NCBI GenBank assembly: GCA_900318465.1
Contig: ONKQ01000027.1
Span: forward strand, 1-56,055
Length of the DNA: 56,055 nt
Source: an uncultured Bacteroidales bacterium
GTDB lineage: Bacteria; Bacteroidota; Bacteroidia; Bacteroidales; F082
Direction: 5' to 3'
Shown: piece after piece, positions 5,981 to 16,302 of the stretch
How the letters are laid out: the number at the start of each line of letters is the position of its first letter
Numbering within the stretch: position 1 is the first letter of the stretch
Made by a program: the position numbers and the translations under genes
Notes under the pieces: model-generated
The model's database searches: none
What the model was told of the DNA's origin: nothing
What the model saw: only the letters and a program-made list of their open reading frames with translations

Positions 5981-6026
5981 TTCCTGATTTGTATGTACAC
6001 ACCGCGTGTGTCTAAAATGCGAATAC

Positions 6027-6063
6027 CAGCGCATCCGAAAATTTCGGGTGCGCTGTTTTTTTG
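6027..6063 (+). terminator. Rho-independent terminator after tsf
   Basis: CAGCGCATCCGAAA pairs with TTTCGGGTGCGCTG, followed by seven T. The same element, 48 of 49 bases identical, occurs at 14069-14117. The end of the T-tract supplies a TTTG that can serve as the -33 element of the next promoter. Confidence 0.85.
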
Positions 6064-6082
6064 TGTATTGGGAAATTATTTG

Positions 6083-6090
6083 TAGTTTTG
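6083..6090 (+). promoter_or_regulatory. -7 promoter box of the MNT/HEPN operon
   Basis: TAGTTTTG, 19 bases after the TTTG at the end of the tsf terminator T-tract, 23 bases before the ATG at 6114. Confidence 0.55.
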
Positions 6091-6113
6091 CGGATTGAAA
6101 ATCAAAATGTGAT

Positions 6114-6428
6114 ATGGAAGACACGTTGATTGGTATTAAACGATTGGCTTCAGAAGTAGTTCCATTGGGGAGCGAGGCATGGCTTTATGGTTCGCGGGCA
6201 CGAGGGACTGCTCACTCCTATTCGGATTGGGATATTCTTCTCATCCTCAATAAGGAAAAGCTGACGCAGGCGGATTATGACAATGTTAGTTATCCTTTTG
6301 TATTGCTTGGTTGCGAGTTGGGAGAGGAAATAAACCCTATTATGTACACGGAAGATGAATGGCAGTCCTATCATGCTACTCCTTTTTATGAAAATGTCCA
6401 AAAAGATGCAGTAAATTTGTTGCAATGA
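6114..6428 (+). CDS. MNT-type minimal nucleotidyltransferase (likely antitoxin)
   Basis: A 104-residue protein with the minimal nucleotidyltransferase signature: GSRARG at residues 26-31 followed by SDWDI with Asp38 and Asp40, the metal-binding pair of the Pol-beta fold. In characterised MNT/HEPN modules (MntA/HepT) the MNT protein neutralises the HEPN toxin by AMPylating it. Its stop overlaps the start of the HEPN gene by four bases (ATGA), showing translational coupling. It is similar in length and motif to the product at 28081-28395, so the window holds two paralogous pairs. The toxin-antitoxin role is inferred from family and layout. Confidence 0.85.
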   Translation: MEDTLIGIKRLASEVVPLGSEAWLYGSRARGTAHSYSDWDILLILNKEKLTQADYDNVSYPFVLLGCELGEEINPIMYTEDEWQSYHATPFYENVQKDAVNLLQ

Positions 6429-6820
6429 CACCAGAAGACAGGAAAATATTGGTTGACATGCAGGTTGAAAGGACGCATCGCTTTTTGAATCAGGCTGATG
6501 AAATGATGGATATGGGTTATTCTGATATGGCCGTAAATCGTTTTTATTATGCTTGTTTTCATGCTGTGCAAGCTCTGTTTATCCAGAGGGAAATTGTCGC
6601 TCATACCCATTCGGGGATGTTGACTCAGTTCAGCAAACATTTTGTGAAGACTGAAATGGTGCAATTGGAAGATGGAAGTTTTCTTGCCCGTTTGTTTCAG
6701 TTGCGGCAGAAAGCTGATTATAATTGTGCATACAACATAACCAAGGAAGAAGCACAAGCCTTGCAAGAACCGACACATCAGTTCGTTGAAAAGATAGAGA
6801 ATCTGATAAGAAAACAATAA
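6425..6820 (+). CDS. HEPN-domain protein (likely toxin of an MNT/HEPN pair)
   Basis: A 131-residue all-helical HEPN protein. The conserved motif is R39-x6-H46 (NRFYYACFHAVQALF), the R/H arrangement expected of HEPN RNases. The region LRQKADYNCAYNITKEEA near residues 92-110 resembles the conserved YN segment of the family. It overlaps the MNT gene by four bases. HEPN partners in such pairs are usually RNases active on tRNA or mRNA; activity here is not shown by the sequence alone. The downstream DNA is not coding until the HTH gene at 7052. Confidence 0.82.
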   Translation: MTPEDRKILVDMQVERTHRFLNQADEMMDMGYSDMAVNRFYYACFHAVQALFIQREIVAHTHSGMLTQFSKHFVKTEMVQLEDGSFLARLFQLRQKADYNCAYNITKEEAQALQEPTHQFVEKIENLIRKQ

Positions 6821-6894
6821 AACTCAATAATTAGTAAAAACACAAGCAGAACAACCAACAATAACATATTAATAAGATAGCGTTTATAGCTATC

Positions 6895-7044
6895 CTTGAA
6901 TCTCAAATTACCACCCGTCCTCTTTACGAGGACAACTCGTCAAGGGTTAGTTATAAAATGCCGTATTTGTTACGGCGTGGAATAACTTGTTAGACGAGTG
7001 GGGTGTGGTAACCCTGAGATTCAAGCAAGAAACAAATTCCACGC
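6895..7044 (+). ncRNA. Highly folded leader or element overlapping the start region of the small HTH gene
   Basis: Nested complementary arms are visible. P1 is CTTGAATCTCA 6895-6905 with 7015-7025 (11 pairs). P2 is TTACCAC 6908-6914 with 7005-7011. P3 is a hairpin, GTCCTC 6917-6922 with 6928-6933. P4 is CTCGTC 6936-6941 with 6993-6998. P5 is GTTAT 6950-6954 with 6982-6986. P6 is GCCGTA 6960-6965 with 6971-6976. In addition GCGTGGAA 6975-6982 is complementary to TTCCACGC 7037-7044, only 7 bases before the ATG at 7052, so a pseudoknot or an alternative pairing could hide the translation start. It could be a regulatory leader; the alternative is a miniature element with 11-bp terminal inverted repeats. 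No match to a known riboswitch was recognised. Confidence 0.5.
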
Positions 7045-7051
7045 TTTTATT

Positions 7052-7267
7052 ATGTCGAAGGTCAAAGAGGTACATATTGGGAACAGGATTAAGGCCGTGC
7101 TGAAGCAGCAGGGCAGAACCACGGTTTGGCTCGCCCGCCAGATTCCTTGCACACCCAACCATTTGTATAAGGTGTATGCCAACGCCTCCATCAACACCGA
7201 CCTGCTGAAACGCATTTCCGAGATTTTGGATTACAACTTTTTTGGGGAGTTTATCCAAAATGGATAG
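7052..7267 (+). CDS. Small HTH (XRE-like) DNA-binding protein
   Basis: A 71-residue protein that is essentially one helix-turn-helix: HIGNRIKAVLKQQGRTTVWL, then the recognition part IPCTPNHLYKVYANASINTD, then LLKRISEILDYNFF. It resembles a family of tiny Bacteroidales regulators of unknown target. The ATG at 7052 is preferred over a frame opening at 6998, because the longer version would translate part of the folded upstream element and family members start just before the HIG motif. It lies between the folded region 6895-7044 and a long hairpin at 7277-7333, so it probably forms its own unit. It may regulate itself or the giant surface gene downstream; this is inference. Confidence 0.75.
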   Translation: MSKVKEVHIGNRIKAVLKQQGRTTVWLARQIPCTPNHLYKVYANASINTDLLKRISEILDYNFFGEFIQNG

Positions 7268-7276
7268 GGATTACTA

Positions 7277-7333
7277 TTGGAAACAAATATGGTTTTCTAT
7301 CTTTTAATGATAGTATAAAACATTGGTTTCCAA
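7277..7333. terminator. Long hairpin between the HTH gene and the BspA-like gene
   Basis: TTGGAAAC 7277-7284 pairs with GTTTCCAA 7326-7333; inside, GTTTT/AAAAC and CTATC 7297-7301 with GATAG 7309-7313 extend the stem. No long T-tract follows, so it may be an attenuator, processing site or bidirectional terminator rather than a textbook one. Confidence 0.4.
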
Positions 7334-7392
7334 AGAAAAAGGATTTTACTTTGTGTTTTGATTATTTAAGTTAAATTCTAAAATCTAATGTT

Positions 7393-10300
7393 ATGAGTAT
7401 TAAATTCTTACCTTTGAAAAGGGCGGTTCATACTGCCCTGCTTGTCCTACTGATGAGTGTGGTGGGACTGACAAATGCAATGGCCCAGAGTTTCACTGTG
7501 GGCAACCTGAACTATTCCGTCAATAGCGACGGTGTTTCCGTGACTTTGACAGGCCATGTGGACGGCACATCAGCCACAGGCCCGTTAGTGATTCCAGAAT
7601 CTGTGACCTATAATGGCACGGCTTATTCTGTAACAATGATAGGCTATATGGCATTCCGTAATAATACTGGGCTTACTGGTAACCTTGTCATTCCTAATTC
7701 TGTGACAAATATTGGTACTAGAGCCTTCCAAAGTTGTATAGGCTTCACAGGTGTATTAACCATAGGCACTTCTTTGACTACAACGGGAAGTGAGGTTTTT
7801 GAGTATTGTAGTGGTCTAACAGAGATACACTACAATGCTATTAATTGTGAGGATTCTTATTCTGTTTTGAGTTATTGTGACGGTTTGCATACACTTGTGA
7901 TTGGAGATAATGTAGAGAGAATCCCGGGCGGTTGGTTCAGTGGCAGAGCCTTCACGGGCAGCTTGACCATCCCCAATTCCGTGACTTCGATAGGAGAGAG
8001 TGCTTTTCAAGGTTGCAGCGGTTTCACAGGCAGCCTGACTATCCCCAATTCCGTGACTTCAATTGGACAATATGCTTTCTCCGGTTGTAGCGGTTTCACA
8101 GGTAGTCTAACCATAGGCAATTCCGTGACAGAAATAAGCTATGCTGCTTTTTCAGGTTGCAGTGGTTTCACAGGTAGTCTAACCATAGGCAATTCCGTGA
8201 CTATAATAAACGCCTATGCTTTTTCAGGTTGCAGTGGTTTTACTGGTATCCTGACCATACCCAACTCGGTGACCAAGATTTATAATAGAGCTTTTCAGAA
8301 TTGTACTGGCTTTACGGGCAGCCTTGTTATCCCCAATTCGGTAACTTGGTTATCTGGATTTAATGGCTGTACTGGTTTCACAGGCAGTTTGGTTATCCCT
8401 AATTCCGTGGACACGATAGGCGGTTATGCTTTTCAGGGTTGCACTGGATTTACTGGAAGTTTGACTCTTGGCAATTCAGTAAATAGGATAGGCTTATATG
8501 CTTTTCAGGATTGCACTGGCTTTCTGGGAGTTTTGAACATTCCCAATTCCGTGACTTCAATTGGACAACATGCTTTCGAAGGATGTAGCGGTTTCATGGG
8601 TAGCCTAACCATCCCCAATTCCGTGACCTTAATAGAAGAAGAAGCTTTTTCATATTGCCGCGGTTTCACAGGCAGCCTAACCATCGGCAATTCTGTGACC
8701 ACGATAGGAAGTTCTGCTTTCAATTATTGCAGTTTCACAGGCAGCCTAACCATAGGCAATTCCGTGACTACGATAGGAGGTTCTGCTTTCTCTCGTTGCT
8801 ATGGCTTCAAAGGCAGCCTCACCATCCCCAATTCCGTGACTACAATTGGACAATATGCTTTCTCCGGTTGTAGCGGTTTCACAGGTAGTCTAACCATAGG
8901 CAATTCCGTGACCACGATAGGTGGTGCTGCTTTTGAAGGATGCAGCGGTTTTACAGGCAGCTTGACCATCCCCAATTCCGTGACCACGATAGGAGGTTCT
9001 GCTTTCTCTGGTTGCGGGGGGTTCACTGGTAGCCTAGTCATTCCAAACTCGGTATTAACAATAGATGAATATGCTTTCTCCGGTTGCAGCGGTATCACGG
9101 GCAATCTGACCATCCCCAATTCCATAACCACAATTAAGAAAGGAACTTTCAGCGGTTGTAGTGGCTTCACTGGCAACCTTGTGATTCCTAACTCGGTGGT
9201 CACGATTGGACAGAATGGAGATGTTTCTTATGAACAGGATGGTGCTTTCTACAATTGCAGCGGCTTCACTGGCCTGACCATTCCGAATTCCGTAATGGTG
9301 ATAGGTGGTGCTGCTTTCTATGGCTGTAGTGGTTTTACAGGCAGCCTGACCATCCCCAATTCCGTGACCACGATAGGTAGTGCTGCTTTCTATGGTTGCA
9401 GTGGTTTTACTGGCAGTCTGACCATTCCCAATTCCGTGACCACGATTGGTAGTTATGCTTTCTCTGGTTGCAGTGGTTTTACAGGCGATTTGGTTATCCC
9501 TAATTCAGTGTTCACTATTAAAAAATATGCTTTTAATAATTGCTCTGGTTTGACAAGCCTAACTATTGGTAATTCCGTGGTAACTATTGAAGAAGGCGCT
9601 TTTGCCTATTGCAGTGGATTCACTGGTGCATTGGTGATTCCTAATTCTGTATTCAGTATTGGAAGAACTGATAATTACGTATCTGGGGCATTTCAGAATT
9701 GCAGTGGTTTCACGAGTTTGGTATTGGGTGAATCTTTAATGACAATTGCTGGAAATGATTTTAGGAATTGCACTGGTTTCACCGAAATCTATTCAAACAA
9801 TGCCACGCCACCTATGATTATTATGAATAATACATTTTCGAACTTTTCCGTTCCTGTTTATGTTCCTTGCGGATCGGAAACGGACTATCAGGCAGCCACG
9901 GGTTGGAACAATTTCACCGAAATAAAGGGTCTTTGTGCTGGAACAGTCACAGTTGAGGCAAATCCTGCTGAAGGTGGCACAGTTGCAGGCGGAGGCTATT
10001 ACGAAAGCGGAACGCAATGCACTGTTACGGCGGTTGCCAATGAGGGCTTTGCTTTCGCCAATTGGACCAAAAACGGAGTGGTAGCCTCCACAAACGCTAC
10101 ATACACTTTCCCTGTGGCGGGTGATATGACTTTGGTGGCCAACTTTTTGCAAGATGGCAACATTGTCTTTGCAGATGCCAATGTAAAGGCCATTTGTGTG
10201 GAGCATTGGGACACCAATGGCGATGGCGAATTGAGTTATGTCGAGGCCGCATCGGTGTCGAGTTTGGAATACTATTTTGAATATAATGAAGAAATCACAT

Positions 10301-13300
10301 CGTTTGACGAACTGCAATACTTTATTGGATTGAATTCCATCGGGGATTATGCTTTTTATTATTGTTCTGGCCTCACTTCCATAGTGTTGCCCAGTTCTAT
10401 AACAACCATTGGGTATTACGCATTTTATTACTCTGACCTTCAATCAATCATTACATTGGCTTTAACTCCTCCTGTCATTAGTGGTTATTATACTTTCTCT
10501 GGACTTTACGACATATTACTTTTCGTGCCCTGTGGTGCGCTTGAGGCTTACCAGAATGCTAATTATTGGTCGAATTTTACCAATATTCTGCCAGGAACGT
10601 CCAATTATATTATCCAAGACGGCCTGCGTTATGAAATCACCAGTTCGAATCCGCCCCAAGCGAAGTTGATGGGATTTGCCGAAGGCACAATAGCGGCTGA
10701 AAATTTGGTAATTCCTGCTGCTATCAATAGTGAATGTCCTGAATTGAACTATGCCGTGACGGCAATTGCCGACAGTGCTTTCTACAACTGCAATAGCTTG
10801 ACAGGAACGCTTACGCTTCCTGAATCCATGACCACCATTGGAAACCGTACTTTCTTTAATTCAGGATTAACAGGCGACTTGGTAATCCCTGAAAACATAG
10901 TGATTATTGGCCCACAAACTTTTGCCTATTGTGGCTTTTCATCTCTTCATTTTAACGCCACCGATTGCGTAAGCATTGGACTGAACGATGAAGGTACATG
11001 GAATTTCGCCTTCTGGAACTGCACCCAATTGGAGGAAATCGTTATTGGCGACAACGTGACACAAATTCCGATTTATGCCTTTGCCAACACGAATGCCCAA
11101 AATTGCCGTGTGGATTTGGGAACAGGTGTTGCAACAATCAACAACTATGCATTTTATAATGGAACAAGCAATCCCACCTACAGCATCAAGGGGGCTTTGG
11201 TAATTCCTGCTTCGGTTGGCACGATAGGTTATTGTGCATTCTATGGATGTTCGGGCTTAACCGAGATTTGGAGCAAACGTCCGAGTGCACCCTACATCCA
11301 ATTCAACACCTTCACTGATGTTGACAATTCCATCCCAGTTCATGTGCCTTGCGGATCTACAAGCAGTTATCAATATTCTAACTACTGGTCGGCATTCACC
11401 AACTATGTTGAGAATCCCGCTGTGCTTATTGCGAGGTCGAATAATGAACTTTTGGGTATGGCTACGGTGACGAAGTATGGCGATTGCAACGACAATGTGA
11501 GCATTGTTCAGGCTATGCCTTACATGGGCGCGTTTGCCAGTTGGACCACTCCTGATGGCACTGTGGTTTCGACGAATGCCACCTATACTTTCGCACTTAC
11601 TCAAGATACGATTTTGACAGCCAACTTTGAACCTATGCCTAATGTGAATGCATTTGTTGGAGGCGGCTCCACCAATCATTGGGACGACCCCAACAACTGG
11701 TTGACAAACGAACTTCCGACAGCAATCTCCACGGTGAGCATTTTGGCTGATGTCGAGGTGAACGTGGATGCTTGTGTGCAAGGATTGACAGTTTACGGTA
11801 ACAATGTAGTCACCATTGCCCCCGATGCCCAATTGACAGTTGCTGGGACACTTGAATCGTCTTCGGCATCATCCATCGTTGTGGAAGATGGCGGTCAACT
11901 TGTACATACCAATGATGGAGTGTTGGCGACAGTAAAACGTATCGTTATGCCTTATACTATTGGCGAGCATGACGGTTGGCATTTGATTGCTTCCCCGTTG
12001 ACTGATGAGGTATTGGCCACAGAAGTGCAAAATATGACGGCAGAAGAATACGACTTGTATTATTACGATGAGCCTACCGTTTATTGGATTAATAATAAGG
12101 ATGCCGATAATAATTTCAACACACTTGGGAACGGTATAGGTTATCTATATGGCAACAAGTGCCTTGCACCTGATGAAGCACAGGTGGGTAATGAAGATAA
12201 CACCACGAACGAATATTTTCCATTCTATACTTTGTATGAAAATGGCATAAGTGAAAGCCTGTTCCTTGCCGATGAACTTGAAAATGCTGGATTGGGAACC
12301 ACTTCAATGACCAGCATAAGTTGGTACGCTACCACTAGTACGGGTTATTTGCAAAGTAACATCAGCATTTGGATGGCCAATGTGAATGAAAGTGGTTTGA
12401 CATCCACATCTCACAATATTAGTGGTATGACACTTGTTTATACGGGTGCCATGACACCAGAAATCGGTTGGAATGAGTTTGTTTTCAATGAAGATGGTTT
12501 CGCTTGGGATGGTGTAAGCAATGTTCTTATTTGTGTCCAACGGAACAATGGTGCTTGGCAACAAAATCCCATCAACTGGCAAAGTCATTATTGTGGTTTT
12601 TATGGTACGACATATAGCTATAGGGATTATACTCCTTATGATATGGCGACTGAAACATACGGAATGACAACTTCCACTTCTCGTGCCAACACTATTTTCA
12701 AAGGGCTTGGTGGACAGAATGAATCCATTACGATTTCTTTCATTGGTGAGCTCAAAAACGGCACCGCCGAAGTTAATGTGCCTTTGTCGTATACGACAGG
12801 CCACGCCCTGCAAGGCTTCAACCTTGTGGGCAACCCGTTTGCGCACAATGTCACCTCGTATGCTTCCGTCAATGTGGCCAATGGTTGCTATGTGATGAAC
12901 GAGGCAAAGGACGACCTTATTGTGAGTGAGATTTCTGAAGAGAATCCGCTGAAACCCGCCGAGGGCTTCTTCGTGAAAGCCACGGCTGCTGGCGCTTCCA
13001 TCACTTTCAACCCGGGTCGTGGGTCAACGGCAACACAAAGCGGCACCATCCGTGTGGAGTTGATGGAGAATGACAAACTCGTCGACCGCCTTCTTGTGAA
13101 GACTGCCGAGGGTCAGCCTTTGGAGAAGTTCTCCCTCAATGAGAGAAGGACAAGACTTTTCGCACAATGCGAGCGTCAGGAATTAGCCATCGTGCCTTGC
13201 GAGGGCAATGAGCAGGCTGTCAATTTCAAAGCCGCCAAGAACGGCCAATACACCATCTCCGTAAATGCTGACGGTCTGGATTTCAGCTATCTGCATCTCA

Positions 13301-13641
13301 TCGACAACCTCACGGGTGCGGATGTTGACCTGTTGGCTGAAACAAGCTATACCTTTGAGGCCAAAACGAGCGATTTTGCTTCGAGGTTCTTGTTGCGGTT
13401 TATTCCGAAAGACGGCTCTTCGACAAGCTCAGAGACCTTCGCTTTCATCAGCAACGGGAGTATTATCATCACTGCTACGGATACTAATTCCACGTTGCAG
13501 ATTGTTGATGTGATGGGCCGCGTGGTCGTTAATACAGACGTTACACGCAATGTCTCTACCAGCGGAATTTCGGCGGGTGTGTATGTTTTGCGTCTTATCA
13601 GCGGCAACGATGTTAGGACACAGAAAATTGTAGTGGAATAA
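7393..13641 (+). CDS. Giant BspA-like leucine-rich repeat surface protein with T9SS sorting domain
   Basis: A 2082-residue secreted protein. Residues 1-32 form a signal peptide ending AMAQ. Residues about 60-820 hold roughly 26 LRR_5 (TpLRR/BspA) units of about 23 residues built on SLTIPNSVTTIG...AFSGCSGFTG. Then come an InlB-B-like module (about 850-915, EGGTVAGGGYYESGTQ), an EF-hand-like DTNGDGELSY (about 940), further diverged LRR units (about 960-1300), a second InlB-B-like piece (about 1355-1415) and a beta-rich region. The last 75 residues are a type A T9SS sorting domain (LQIVDVMGRVVV...GVYVLRLISGND...KIVVE). BspA-type LRR proteins in oral and gut Bacteroidales bind fibronectin and other cells, so an adhesin role is likely. 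The start follows a short A/T-rich leader. An antisense reading of the repeats is only a shadow. Confidence 0.93.
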   Translation: MSIKFLPLKRAVHTALLVLLMSVVGLTNAMAQSFTVGNLNYSVNSDGVSVTLTGHVDGTSATGPLVIPESVTYNGTAYSVTMIGYMAFRNNTGLTGNLVIPNSVTNIGTRAFQSCIGFTGVLTIGTSLTTTGSEVFEYCSGLTEIHYNAINCEDSYSVLSYCDGLHTLVIGDNVERIPGGWFSGRAFTGSLTIPNSVTSIGESAFQGCSGFTGSLTIPNSVTSIGQYAFSGCSGFTGSLTIGNSVTEISYAAFSGCSGFTGSLTIGNSVTIINAYAFSGCSGFTGILTIPNSVTKIYNRAFQNCTGFTGSLVIPNSVTWLSGFNGCTGFTGSLVIPNSVDTIGGYAFQGCTGFTGSLTLGNSVNRIGLYAFQDCTGFLGVLNIPNSVTSIGQHAFEGCSGFMGSLTIPNSVTLIEEEAFSYCRGFTGSLTIGNSVTTIGSSAFNYCSFTGSLTIGNSVTTIGGSAFSRCYGFKGSLTIPNSVTTIGQYAFSGCSGFTGSLTIGNSVTTIGGAAFEGCSGFTGSLTIPNSVTTIGGSAFSGCGGFTGSLVIPNSVLTIDEYAFSGCSGITGNLTIPNSITTIKKGTFSGCSGFTGNLVIPNSVVTIGQNGDVSYEQDGAFYNCSGFTGLTIPNSVMVIGGAAFYGCSGFTGSLTIPNSVTTIGSAAFYGCSGFTGSLTIPNSVTTIGSYAFSGCSGFTGDLVIPNSVFTIKKYAFNNCSGLTSLTIGNSVVTIEEGAFAYCSGFTGALVIPNSVFSIGRTDNYVSGAFQNCSGFTSLVLGESLMTIAGNDFRNCTGFTEIYSNNATPPMIIMNNTFSNFSVPVYVPCGSETDYQAATGWNNFTEIKGLCAGTVTVEANPAEGGTVAGGGYYESGTQCTVTAVANEGFAFANWTKNGVVASTNATYTFPVAGDMTLVANFLQDGNIVFADANVKAICVEHWDTNGDGELSYVEAASVSSLEYYFEYNEEITSFDELQYFIGLNSIGDYAFYYCSGLTSIVLPSSITTIGYYAFYYSDLQSIITLALTPPVISGYYTFSGLYDILLFVPCGALEAYQNANYWSNFTNILPGTSNYIIQDGLRYEITSSNPPQAKLMGFAEGTIAAENLVIPAAINSECPELNYAVTAIADSAFYNCNSLTGTLTLPESMTTIGNRTFFNSGLTGDLVIPENIVIIGPQTFAYCGFSSLHFNATDCVSIGLNDEGTWNFAFWNCTQLEEIVIGDNVTQIPIYAFANTNAQNCRVDLGTGVATINNYAFYNGTSNPTYSIKGALVIPASVGTIGYCAFYGCSGLTEIWSKRPSAPYIQFNTFTDVDNSIPVHVPCGSTSSYQYSNYWSAFTNYVENPAVLIARSNNELLGMATVTKYGDCNDNVSIVQAMPYMGAFASWTTPDGTVVSTNATYTFALTQDTILTANFEPMPNVNAFVGGGSTNHWDDPNNWLTNELPTAISTVSILADVEVNVDACVQGLTVYGNNVVTIAPDAQLTVAGTLESSSASSIVVEDGGQLVHTNDGVLATVKRIVMPYTIGEHDGWHLIASPLTDEVLATEVQNMTAEEYDLYYYDEPTVYWINNKDADNNFNTLGNGIGYLYGNKCLAPDEAQVGNEDNTTNEYFPFYTLYENGISESLFLADELENAGLGTTSMTSISWYATTSTGYLQSNISIWMANVNESGLTSTSHNISGMTLVYTGAMTPEIGWNEFVFNEDGFAWDGVSNVLICVQRNNGAWQQNPINWQSHYCGFYGTTYSYRDYTPYDMATETYGMTTSTSRANTIFKGLGGQNESITISFIGELKNGTAEVNVPLSYTTGHALQGFNLVGNPFAHNVTSYASVNVANGCYVMNEAKDDLIVSEISEENPLKPAEGFFVKATAAGASITFNPGRGSTATQSGTIRVELMENDKLVDRLLVKTAEGQPLEKFSLNERRTRLFAQCERQELAIVPCEGNEQAVNFKAAKNGQYTISVNADGLDFSYLHLIDNLTGADVDLLAETSYTFEAKTSDFASRFLLRFIPKDGSSTSSETFAFISNGSIIITATDTNSTLQIVDVMGRVVVNTDVTRNVSTSGISAGVYVLRLISGNDVRTQKIVVE
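7660..9780 (+). repeat. Tandem LRR coding repeats (about 69-bp period)
   Basis: About 26 near-identical units within the BspA-like gene, each including variants of ATCCCCAATTCCGTGAC and GGTTGCAGCGGTTTCACAGG. High DNA identity between units suggests recent expansion or homogenisation, so copy number may vary between strains. Confidence 0.9.
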
Positions 13642-13652
13642 TCGATGGTGTT

Positions 13653-13731
13653 TGTAGGGCTGTCGTATTACGGTAGCCGCACCCAATCAATCGGTTATAT
13701 GATGCGGCTGCCACGGTGTGACAGCCCTACA
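13653..13731. repeat. Intergenic inverted repeat after the BspA-like gene
   Basis: TGTAGGGCTGTC 13653-13664 pairs with GACAGCCCTACA 13720-13731, and AGCCGCA 13675-13681 pairs with TGCGGCT 13703-13709. The 79-bp element lies 11 bases after the stop. It may act as a terminator, but there is no T-tract; it looks like a dispersed Bacteroidales repeat. Confidence 0.7.
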
Positions 13732-13786
13732 AGGCCAAACGAACCCTTTTGAATCTTTAAAATTTGAATTTTAAATCAATAGAAAT

Positions 13787-14047
13787 ATGAAAAAACTATC
13801 AATAACAATCGCTCTCCTTCTCGGAATGAGTATTACAACCTTTGCCTCCCCCGATGGCGGTGGATTGTTCCAACGCGGAATGGTTCCCGATGAGGAATAT
13901 TTTGGCTCTCGCATTAATGAAAGGCCAATAATGCCATATCACGAACTGAATACCAACCAACCAGCCTGCACTCCCTTGGGCAGCGGCATTGCCGTTCTAT
14001 TAGGTCTTGGAGCGGCTTATCTCGTTGGCAAGAAAAGCAAGGAATAA
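13787..14047 (+). CDS. Small exported protein with C-terminal membrane anchor, unknown function
   Basis: An 86-residue protein I do not recognise by name. Residues 1-20 are a signal peptide (KKLSITIALLLGMSITTFAS). A hydrophilic middle follows (GGLFQRGMVPDEEYFGSR). The C-terminus is tripartite: a short PLGSG motif, a hydrophobic helix (IAVLLGLGAAYLVG) and a basic end (KKSKE). This layout recalls sorting tags of the PEP-CTERM or GlyGly-CTERM kind, although the motif differs; it may simply be a membrane anchor. It lies between a T9SS cargo gene and a hexosaminidase gene and ends just before a strong terminator, so it probably belongs with the upstream transcript or has its own. Confidence 0.75.
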   Translation: MKKLSITIALLLGMSITTFASPDGGGLFQRGMVPDEEYFGSRINERPIMPYHELNTNQPACTPLGSGIAVLLGLGAAYLVGKKSKE

Positions 14048-14068
14048 TGGATTTGGGTTAATACAAAA

Positions 14069-14105
14069 CAGCGCATCCGAAAATTTCGGGCGCGCTGTTT
14101 TTTTG
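14069..14105 (+). terminator. Rho-independent terminator, second copy of the tsf terminator
   Basis: Same stem as at 6027 with a single C/T change, followed by seven T and by GTGTATTGGGAAA. It ends the transcript of the small exported protein. Confidence 0.85.
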
Positions 14106-14122
14106 TGTATTGGGAAAATCAA

Positions 14123-14130
14123 TATCTTTG
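14123..14130 (+). promoter_or_regulatory. -7 promoter box of the GH20 gene
   Basis: TATCTTTG, 17 bases after the TTTG at the end of the terminator T-tract and 21 bases before the ATG at 14152. It supports the 14152 start over one at 14110. Confidence 0.55.
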
Positions 14131-14151
14131 CCCCAAATTAATTCCATTCCT

Positions 14152-16302
14152 ATGAAAAAAATATTCCTGTTCTGCATCGCGGCGCTAATCCTTTCCGCCT
14201 GCACAAAACAGCAACTTCCCGTTGCCAATTACGACATCATCCCGCAACCCAAAGAGGTGCAACTGAACGACAACGGTGCTTTCGTATTGAGCCCCAAGAC
14301 CGTTGTCTATTATGAAGCCGACCTGCACCGTGAGGCACAGTTTCTTAGCGAGTATGTCAACGACATCCTTGGCTTTGGTCTGAAACTCAAGGAAATGCAA
14401 GGTGAGAAAGCTGACGGTATCGTGCTGAAATTAGCTCCCGTCGATTTCGGTCAGGCTGAGTCATACGAAATCAGCGTTACGCCAAAGCAAGTTGTCATTA
14501 AAGGTGCTGACGCGGCGGGCGTGTTCTACGGCATCCAAACCCTTCGCAAGAGTTTGCCAATTCCTCTGAAGAATTCAACTGACAACTCTCAACTCTCAAC
14601 TGTCAACTGTCAACTCCCCTGCGGCACAATCAAAGACTACCCCAATTTCGCCTATCGTGGTATGCACTTAGACCCTTGCCGCCACTTCATCCCTTTGGAC
14701 TCGGTGAAGGTTTATTTGGATATGATGGCCATGCACAACATGAACCAGTTCCATTTCCACCTTTCCGAAGACCAAGGCTGGCGCATCGAAATCAAGAAAT
14801 ATCCCGAATTGACGGAAATTGGCGCGTATCGTAAGGGCACGGTCATCGGGCATAATGGGAATTTGTACGACACCATCCGTCACGGCGGCTACTACACCCA
14901 AGACGAACTCCGCGACCTCATCCAGTATGCCGCCGAGCGTCACATCAACATCATCCCCGAAATCGACCTGCCGGGCCACATGCAGGCGGCTTTGGCCTGT
15001 TATCCCAACATGGGCTGCACGGGCGGCCCTTACGAGGTTTGGAAGCGTTGGGGCGTTTCGGAAGACGTGCTTTGTGCTGGCAACGAGGAAGCTATGCAAT
15101 TCGCCGAGGATGTGCTCAATGAAGTGATGGATTTGTTCCCCTCGCCCTATATCCACATCGGCGGCGACGAGTGCCCCAAGGTGCGTTGGGAAAAGTGCCC
15201 AAAATGCCAAGCCAAAATCAAGGAGTTAGGTATCAAGAAAGATGACAAGTTCTCCGCCGAGGACTATCTGCAAAGCTATGTGATGAACCGCATGGCGAAG
15301 GTGGTGGAGGCGCGTGGCCGCCGTGTCATCGGTTGGGACGAGATTCTGGAAGGCAACGTTTCCGAGACGGCCATCATCATGAGTTGGCGCGGTACGGAAG
15401 GCGGTATCGAGGCGGCACGCAATGGCCATGATGTGATTATGGCGCCCTCGTCGCATCTCTATTTCGACTATTACCAAAGCGAGGACATTGCCAGCGAACC
15501 CATGTGCATCGGTGGCTACTTGCCCGTGGAGCGCGTGTACGAGTTCCAGCCGCTGCCTGAGGTACTAACGCCTGAAGAGCAAAAGCACATCATTGGTGTG
15601 CAGGCCAACATTTGGACGGAATACATCGCCCATTTCTGGCATGTGCAATACATGGCCTTGCCGCGTATGGAAGCCTTGACAGAAATACAGTGGAACAATC
15701 CAAAAGAGCGTGACTTTGAATCGTTTGTGGAGCGTTGCAAGAAAATGAGGCAGTTTTACGAACTTTATCATTACACCTACGCCGACCATATCTTCAACCC
15801 GAAAGCATGGGCCGACACGGTTGCACCGAATCTGGCCACGCGCAAGCCGATTTCTTTGCGCCAGCAGCCTGCCGAAAAATACACATACGGTGGTGCCAAG
15901 GTGTTGAGTGATGGCAATTTGGGTCGGGGAGCATACAATTCAGGGCGTTGGTTGGGTTTCTGTGGCTATCCTTTGGATGCTGTCATCGACTTGGAGCAAT
16001 CCGCTGAAATGCACCATGTGCGTTTTCATGCCTTGGTCAATAAAGGTGCTTGGATTTACAATCCGCGTCAGGTTAAGGTGTTGGTTTCGGATGATGGTGA
16101 GCGGTTTGCGGAGGTGGCCGTCAAAGCCTTCCCGATTTCCACATGGGAGGACAAGGATGGCATTTTTGTCTATGAGTTGGAGTTTGAGCCGATAACCGCA
16201 CGTTATGTCGAGGTTGTGATTGAAGGCTTCGACTTGCCGGCGGATCACGATGGCTACGGTAATCCAGCGTGGTTGTTCGTGGATGAGATTGAGATAGAAT
16301 GA
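14152..16302 (+). CDS. Beta-N-acetylhexosaminidase, GH20 lipoprotein
   Basis: A 716-residue enzyme that removes terminal GlcNAc/GalNAc from glycans. A lipoprotein signal ends at Cys17 (LILSAC), so it is probably anchored in the outer membrane. Residues about 25-140 are the GH20b domain; the catalytic barrel follows with MHLDPCRHF, HFHLSEDQGWRIE, DLPGHMQAA and the acid/base pair Asp339-Glu340 in HIGGDECPK. The last 130 residues form a discoidin/F5-8C-like beta domain (LGFCGYPLDAVIDL...). Residues 141-155 (NSTDNSQLSTVNCQL) are encoded by six tandem heptamers and lie in the linker between GH20b and barrel, an unusual in-frame repeat insertion. Convergent with the gingipain gene across a shared terminator. 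Confidence 0.95.
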   Translation: MKKIFLFCIAALILSACTKQQLPVANYDIIPQPKEVQLNDNGAFVLSPKTVVYYEADLHREAQFLSEYVNDILGFGLKLKEMQGEKADGIVLKLAPVDFGQAESYEISVTPKQVVIKGADAAGVFYGIQTLRKSLPIPLKNSTDNSQLSTVNCQLPCGTIKDYPNFAYRGMHLDPCRHFIPLDSVKVYLDMMAMHNMNQFHFHLSEDQGWRIEIKKYPELTEIGAYRKGTVIGHNGNLYDTIRHGGYYTQDELRDLIQYAAERHINIIPEIDLPGHMQAALACYPNMGCTGGPYEVWKRWGVSEDVLCAGNEEAMQFAEDVLNEVMDLFPSPYIHIGGDECPKVRWEKCPKCQAKIKELGIKKDDKFSAEDYLQSYVMNRMAKVVEARGRRVIGWDEILEGNVSETAIIMSWRGTEGGIEAARNGHDVIMAPSSHLYFDYYQSEDIASEPMCIGGYLPVERVYEFQPLPEVLTPEEQKHIIGVQANIWTEYIAHFWHVQYMALPRMEALTEIQWNNPKERDFESFVERCKKMRQFYELYHYTYADHIFNPKAWADTVAPNLATRKPISLRQQPAEKYTYGGAKVLSDGNLGRGAYNSGRWLGFCGYPLDAVIDLEQSAEMHHVRFHALVNKGAWIYNPRQVKVLVSDDGERFAEVAVKAFPISTWEDKDGIFVYELEFEPITARYVEVVIEGFDLPADHDGYGNPAWLFVDEIEIE
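14575..14616 (+). repeat. Six tandem heptamers (TCAACTG type) inside the GH20 gene
   Basis: TCAACTG, ACAACTC, TCAACTC, TCAACTG, TCAACTG, TCAACTC in a row: 42 bases, so the reading frame is kept and 14 codons are added. Such CAACT-word arrays are usually intergenic in Bacteroidales. Confidence 0.9.

Follow-up and report, generated by a model that had tools for sequence, protein, structure and literature searches.

The window, i.e., the whole 56,055-nt stretch of Bacteroidales DNA analysed here, carries on its plus strand a folded leader placed between two small genes and a gene for a 71-aa HTH protein. The two genes upstream (6114-6820) encode NTP_transf_2 and HEPN proteins, which we take to be a putative MNT-HEPN toxin-antitoxin pair, and the HTH gene is followed by a gene for a BspA-type surface protein. 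The features of the locus are as follows:

6083..6090, + strand: candidate promoter box TAGTTTTG, read by eye, before the MNT-HEPN pair
6114..6428, + strand: nucleotidyltransferase gene (NTP_transf_2), first of the putative MNT-HEPN pair
6425..6820, + strand: HEPN-domain gene, ending 55 nt before the 5' hairpin of the leader
6873..7051, + strand: whole structured RNA element, from the match of covariance model R1 (6873-7057, 197.5 bits) and the fold
7052..7267, + strand: 71-aa HTH gene of the 'HIGxxIK' family (HTH_26 under the Pfam cut-off, E 0.006)
7393..13641, + strand: BspA-type LRR surface protein gene, 3' of the HTH gene (first 536 aa scanned)

The box at 6083-6090 agrees with the Bacteroidales -7 consensus TAnnTTTG, and by eye no TAnnTTTG was found in the 100 nt before the window leader. 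Since the features share one strand, the gap between the pair and the leader is 55 nt and the box stands only before the pair, a single MNT-HEPN-leader-HTH transcript is likely in the window.

A reading made from the sequence alone (hereafter, the sequence-only reading) had pointed to unusual folding of the region 6895-7051. This folding is real, with an MFE of -61.1 kcal/mol compared with a mean of -33.7 in dinucleotide shuffles (z -7.27, 0 of 200 as low), and the helices of the MFE fold are close to those it had listed. The region is confirmed, and the conserved unit in the window is longer, beginning with an additional 5' hairpin (6876-6894) and continuing through P1-P4 and the tail to a T-rich run that ends at 7051. 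The ATG of the HTH gene, at 7052, lies immediately 3' of this run. In the family as a whole, the element has a length of ~165-190 nt. Its parts in the window are:

6876..6894, + strand: 5' hairpin P0, GATAGC-GTTTATA-GCTATC, with pairs preserved by G-U/A-U changes in the genus alignment A2
6895..6905 / 7015..7025, + strand: helix P1, 11 pairs (MFE fold; compensatory changes)
6908..6916 / 7002..7011, + strand: helix P2, 7+2 pairs with one bulge (MFE fold; covariation)
6917-6922 / 6928-6933, + strand: variable hairpin between P2 and P3, 6 bp (MFE fold; varies in A2)
6935..6944 / 6990..6999, + strand: helix P3, 7+2 pairs (MFE fold; covariation)
6949..6954 / 6982..6987, + strand: helix P3b, 6 pairs (MFE fold)
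6958-6965 / 6971-6978, + strand: hairpin P4, 8 pairs, ATGCCGTA/TACGGCGT (MFE fold; covariation)
6975..6983, + strand: switch strand e, GCGTGGAAT, whose partner is the tail (PK1) or, partly, P4
7036..7044, + strand: tail strand e', ATTCCACGC, complement of switch strand e
6892..6898, + strand: PK2 5' strand ATCCTTG, competing with the ends of P0 and P1
6941..6947, + strand: PK2 3' strand CAAGGGT, partner of 6892-6898
7045..7051, + strand: T-rich run TTTTATT, terminator-like, directly after the tail

The 8-base complement previously proposed between 6975-6982 (GCGTGGAA) and 7037-7044 (TTCCACGC) is exact and grows to 9 bp (6975-6983/7036-7044). A second long-range pairing, PK2 (6892-6898/6941-6947), was absent from the sequence-only reading.

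The element is present in many copies, both in its own genome and in related bacteria. The own genome contains 8 clear blastn matches, the window copy included, and 28 matches by covariance models, 27 of them found by R2 (E <=0.01), a model built from 23 distant order copies, and one (C24) by R1. Of the 99 genus genomes, 84 had blastn matches at E <=1, the weakest being due to chance, and 74 had the element according to R1. Using R1, the family sample of 173 genomes contained matches in the own genus only (1 of 16 genera), and the order sample in 52 of 393 genomes, representing 34 of 206 genera. With R2, matches were obtained in 103 of 395 genomes (63 of 197 genera) of the class sample and in 31 of 247 genomes of the phylum sample; nine of the latter do not belong to the class, and their best scores are 47-75 bits. 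For searches of more than 40 genomes, filters were stricter and scoring was confined to the best 6-26 candidates in each genome, so that the copy numbers obtained there are lower bounds. The pattern matches listed include Flavobacterium, Chryseobacterium, Mesonia algae, Pedobacter cryophilus, Sunxiuqinia indica, Dysgonomonas, and Tannerella MAGs, and R2 matches most of the 80 loci examined from the scan of named genomes with the pattern. Some pattern matches fell in records named Rhodobacteraceae, Alcaligenaceae, Acetatifactor, Vreelandella, and Eubacteriales (L171, L181, L189, L216, and L236), which could represent contamination by Bacteroidota. In the fragmented assemblies of four genomes (G345, G188, G242, and G513), many of the copies are situated a few hundred bases or less from a contig end, as expected of repeats.

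Rfam 15 gave 0 matches over the whole window at the gathering cut-off, and at the gathering score it placed no model on the element in two sets of 14 and 18 copy-bearing loci. The best sub-threshold result for the window copy (E <=10) had an E of 2.2, which is at chance level. The Rfam matches near the element, yet outside it, were a group II intron (RF00029, L093:209-284) and Flavo-1 (RF01705, L144:1051-1126).

Compensatory changes, which had been proposed as a check of a regulatory RNA, are abundant in P1-P4. In the genus set (A2), comprising 30 oriented copies picked from the first loci and serving as the seed of R1, double changes were found in 15 of 47 consensus pairs, and in an order alignment built by sequence alone, without structure, 22 of 37 consensus pairs had changed on both sides. 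The class set (A6), an alignment from 100 chosen loci, contained 105 distinct rows and showed double changes in 32 of 37 pairs, with the five nested helices 96.8% paired and a helix covariation score of 0.641 against 0.192 in shuffles (0 of 500 as good), these helix counts leaning toward the R2 structure because A6 was fitted to R2. Three antisense rows of A6 were retained for the helix and PK covariation counts and excluded from the counts of T-runs, G-U/A-C cells, and ORFs. The strand on which the structure is read could also be distinguished. G-U cells greatly outnumbered A-C cells in the helices of both the class set (315 vs. 22) and the genus set (149 vs. 5), and the long-range pairs contained 79 G-U and 25 A-C cells. 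The excess in the helices indicates that the plus strand functions as RNA and not as a DNA element. The structure is conserved as RNA, with compensatory changes that exceed both the shuffled and the slid controls.

The two long-range pairings were evaluated outside every model. In the class set, PK1 and PK2 together had 93.6% of their cells paired, compared with 89.1% for shuffled and no more than 56.0% for slid versions, and they contained 61 double-change cells against 18.5 in shuffles (0 of 500). Versions slid by -3 or -1 columns also had 9 double-change pairs, but 25 and 20 cells. The 61 cells are divided between PK2 (54) and PK1 (7). In the genus set, 267 of 270 PK1 cells were paired (slid versions <=0.54) with zero double changes, and 203 of 210 PK2 cells were paired (slid versions <=0.57). 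Support for PK1 is thus mostly conservation, and the long-range covariation is mainly that of PK2. Covariation between 6975-6982 and 7037-7044, another of the proposed checks, exists to a small extent, in the 7 class-set cells and in divergent copies, but is lacking in the genus set.

In copies of the order and class, P4 has the form GCUCACGC...GCGUGGGC, and its GCGUGG strand also complements a tail CCACGC located before the T-run; PK2 has the general form UUCUUG/CAAGAA, competing with the ends of P0 and P1. At three loci (L143, L144, and L147), the 5' strand of P4, the central strand, and the tail are all off-consensus yet mutually complementary, although the three come from one family and perhaps reflect a single event. 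Two copies of the own genome (L311 and L316) show a matched change in the three strands that is independent of these loci, and in L121 and L122 matched changes are found in the central strand and the tail. As the central strand covaries with two partners, it can be argued that both pairings are selected. The overlap between P4 and PK1 is full in the order and class copies; in the window and its genus the two share just 4 nt, so exclusion would be partial there. The calculated duplex energy in the window is -13.2 kcal/mol for the 9-base e/e' match and -11.5 kcal/mol for the isolated P4 hairpin. Among 103 class-set copies, 97 have a T-run of at least 4 within their last 25 nt. When L093, L102, and L154 are folded as single sequences, their tail and T-run are paired with the 5' strand of P0, a third possible partner.

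One strand with two alternative partners, one of them ending on a T-run before a gene, is the arrangement found in attenuators. We consider, with moderate confidence, that the element belongs to a new class of cis-regulatory attenuator 5' leaders of Bacteroidota, present in multiple copies. Its core would consist of the P1-P2-P3-P4 stack with strongly conserved internal loops, together with PK1 and PK2. The central strand (GCGTGGAAT in the window) could be held in P4 or captured by the tail (ATTCCACGC) directly before the T-run. Capture by the tail would create a pseudoknotted, terminator-like helix on the T-run, and transcription would stop before the gene, whereas P4 holding the strand would allow RNA polymerase to read through; the trigger might act on the conserved loops. 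In the window, MNT-HEPN and HTH-BspA probably form one transcription unit with the leader as the divide, such that the HTH-BspA genes could be switched while the MNT-HEPN pair stays on. The suggestion of the sequence-only reading that exclusive pairings operate in a new cis-regulatory RNA is supported by the wealth of compensatory changes in P1-P4. The PK1 helix would enclose 52 nt, which is unusual for an intrinsic terminator, the T-run of the window is no more than TTTTATT, and a simple terminator scan called no terminator at the element. Attenuation, with termination as the presumed outcome, is nevertheless the most economical reading.

The sequence-only reading had taken a constant position in front of one HTH family as a mark of such an RNA, and this was not borne out. 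The 'HIGxxIK' HTH gene is directly downstream in 39 of 112 unique genus/order copies and absent in 73 (the HTH profile, with seeds chosen by the HIG motif, flagged 40, of which L090 was discarded on account of a non-HTH seed within the profile). Many of the remaining downstream genes look, by eye, like genes for secreted, lipoprotein, membrane, or BspA products. Pfam annotation of 94 of 106 genus/order downstream genes gave HTH_26 in 14, a T9SS sorting tail in 8, HTH_3 in 5, a Zn ribbon in 3, and LRR_5 in 2. In the class set, SusC-like receptors, the kind of downstream gene noted in Flavobacteria, account for roughly one third of first genes (CarbopepD_reg_2 26, TonB Plug 25, in a tally covering 78 of 84 downstream genes).

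The orientation relative to the downstream gene is constrained. Within 150 nt of the element, an ORF of at least 65 aa begins on the same strand in 99 of 106 testable genus and order copies, compared with 19 of 106 in the divergent direction. In the class set, same-strand ORFs prevail when ORFs of at least 200 aa within 700 nt are considered (45/60 vs. 17/60) and in another test (41/77 vs. 16/77), and the short-range test is weak (46/80 vs. 33/80). The copies therefore occupy the position typical of riboswitches, 5' of same-strand coding genes, in the genus and order, and less clearly at short distances in the class set. A search of the genus with an HTH profile located the element directly upstream at 28 of the 30 loci returned, a proportion favoured by the profile having been built from element-linked genes; at the other two loci the HTH gene lies, by eye, close behind a -7-like box.

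These linkages bear on a different possibility, namely that a ~170-nt RNA ending at the T-run acts in trans as a standalone or dual-function sRNA, the downstream gene being expressed by read-through or being a mere neighbour. Copies of Flavobacterium fit this description, as -7 boxes of their own precede them by ~26 and ~46 nt, and the following gene on the strand begins ~110-620 nt past the RNA at nine loci. At most of the Flavobacterium loci drawn, a divergent gene ends ~91-146 nt upstream, often of the Xre/HTH type. An sRNA is, however, disfavoured by the very strong same-strand linkage in the genus and order (99/106 vs. 19/106) and by the presence of the element at 28 of 30 genus HTH loci, and we regard it as improbable in general, if conceivable in Flavobacterium.

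The distance to the start codon bears on a translational switch, in which PK1 would occlude the AU-rich initiation region and P4 would free it, with no termination of transcription. The window ATG abuts the T-run, and most HTH copies have a start codon -7 to +23 nt from the end of the element (one at +129). Many other genus/order copies, by contrast, have 40-195 nt between element and start codon, and in these copies, as in those with gaps of ~110-620 nt, the tail and T-run are kept. The hiding of the translation start proposed by the sequence-only reading is thus plausible for HTH copies with an ATG touching the T-run, but not for copies with gaps of 40 to ~600 nt. Since the start codon is 40 to ~600 nt away in many copies, a transcriptional switch is the more general explanation, and a purely translational one seems rather unlikely.

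The protein-binding leader, in which the small HTH protein or an RNA-binding protein on the loops would set the choice between P4 and PK1, is less probable still, although it is compatible with the attenuator model. The unpaired segments are highly conserved, and HTH genes lie beside the RNA, downstream in Bacteroidales and divergent in Flavobacteria. Among 29 class-set upstream genes, HTH_26 was found in 19 and HTH_3 in 18 at E <=0.01, these genes having been picked mostly for being divergent. Against this reading, 73 of 112 genus/order copies lack an HTH gene directly downstream, and HTH proteins of this type usually bind DNA.

Upstream of the element, the gene content is variable. Genes upstream of genus copies (65 of 103 scanned) are often toxin-antitoxin-like, including HEPN (14), nucleotidyltransferase (5), DUF1016 (5), Fic (3), and DUF4160 (3), as raw counts without a control. 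In a quick tree of 66 genus copies, 22 changes of downstream class were counted compared with 38.6 in shuffles (0 of 200 as low), the gene classes being assigned by simple text rules and 28 of 63 inner branches being unresolved. This suggests that the copies tend to travel with their downstream genes. Of 17 loci examined for a Zn-ribbon gene family, 12 have the element by R1, with different upstream genes among loci, and one locus downstream of tsf (L301) has a box and an HTH gene without MNT-HEPN and without the element. The Zn-ribbon and tsf loci indicate that element and downstream gene mostly remain together as the upstream modules vary, and that element-less gene copies exist. A tandem duplication of closely similar element and gene was observed at L120 (1247-1423 and 2373-2548).

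A miniature mobile element, as had been proposed, or an attC-like recombination site whose functional form is a folded single strand can hardly be maintained: multiple copies, frequent toxin-antitoxin-like neighbours (raw counts), the exchange of upstream neighbours, and the HTH gene of L301 without element and MNT-HEPN would suit it, but the 315 G-U against 22 A-C cells are those of a plus-strand RNA, the orientation is fixed relative to the downstream gene and the copies follow its class rather than showing a DNA-level function regardless of gene orientation, the window copy had no blastn match among 50,697 phage and 72,556 plasmid records, and one exact element pattern had 1 match in viral contigs. 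An integron-cassette origin, considered because copies lie between toxin-antitoxin-like modules and accessory genes in arrays, was likewise abandoned in view of the strand asymmetry and the tracking of genes.

Promoter-like boxes and very short ORFs are both enriched upstream of the element. TAnnTTTG occurs within 100 nt upstream in 46 of 112 genus/order copies (6.4 in shuffles) and in 69 of 90 class copies (10.1 in shuffles). Micro-ORFs consisting of Met-stop or Met-codon-stop were found at -45 to -8 in 32 of 112 genus/order copies (6.9 expected) and 31 of 90 class copies (7.4 expected); no Met-stop micro-ORF lies upstream of the window copy. Sequences of this kind (ATGTAG, ATGACATAA, and alike) precede L129, L127, L110, L112, L124, L104, L093, and others. 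On a more speculative level, it is conceivable, if somewhat doubtful, that one ancient switch class controls, across the phylum, changeable surface proteins (SusC-type, BspA, T9SS-sorted, and lipoproteins) and small HTH regulators in response to one common intracellular signal received through the double-pseudoknot core; given the micro-ORFs enriched ahead of many copies, this signal could be the state of translation.

Terminator-type riboswitches and attenuators are 5' leaders with conserved loops and alternative helices, the last of which is followed by a T-run, and they precede varied genes. The element resembles them in all of these traits but differs in that its terminator-like helix is a long-range pseudoknot and its downstream genes are surface, secreted, and HTH genes instead of metabolic ones. 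Other RNAs have been described in Bacteroidota, such as FopS, a paralogous sRNA family of Bacteroides of ~65-70 nt that acts by base pairing in trans (PMC11697453). Both FopS and the element are multi-copy RNAs linked to SusC-like transporters, and, as FopS is described in the portion of that article covered here, the element is set apart by its length (~165-190 nt) and its location in cis (PMC11697453). Structured RNAs of Bacteroidota were also found computationally by Weinberg in 2010, e.g., Flavo-1 and Bacteroidales-1, and the element was unmatched by the motifs of that study that have Rfam models, to which this comparison extends (PMC2864571). The RNAs reported for Flavobacterium psychrophilum, a related organism with Rfp RNAs, comprise 85 new ones and, in addition, 64 transcribed 5' regions with structure, a set that may or may not include the element (PMC9723704). 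Thousands of candidate structured RNAs are known from human microbiomes, some of them limited to Bacteroidetes, such as a 106-bp palindrome near TonB, and no 170-nt double-pseudoknot leader is among the candidates described in the portion of the text covered (PMC8040213). The main-text portions covered of PMC9723704, PMC11697453, PMC8040213, PMC2864571, PMC11109978, and PMC8632094 likewise contain no description of the element. The type of mechanism is therefore known and the RNA class appears to be new, although an earlier unnamed entry in supplementary candidate lists is possible.

Bacteroidota are a dominant phylum of gut and environmental communities, in which diet use and the contact with hosts and phages depend on surface proteins and glycan receptors. 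To our knowledge, few regulatory RNA classes are known in this phylum. With up to 28 matches per genome, the element ties otherwise unrelated genes into one possible regulon, and the sensed signal, once found, would open a control circuit common across the phylum. The two-state structure is open to direct mutational testing. The arrangement in the window further suggests a way in which genes lying behind toxin-antitoxin-like modules might be controlled apart from them. An identical GC-rich block, GGCTGCAACTGGCAACGGCAGTG, is located ~100 nt past the element in the Flavobacterium leaders L161, L210, L212, L218, and L221. Finally, the interval from tsf to a hexosaminidase-like gene (window 6000-16300, L096-L098; names assigned partly by eye) is a variable hotspot that contains differing toxin-antitoxin-like modules, one or two units of element and HTH gene, and BspA or other genes.
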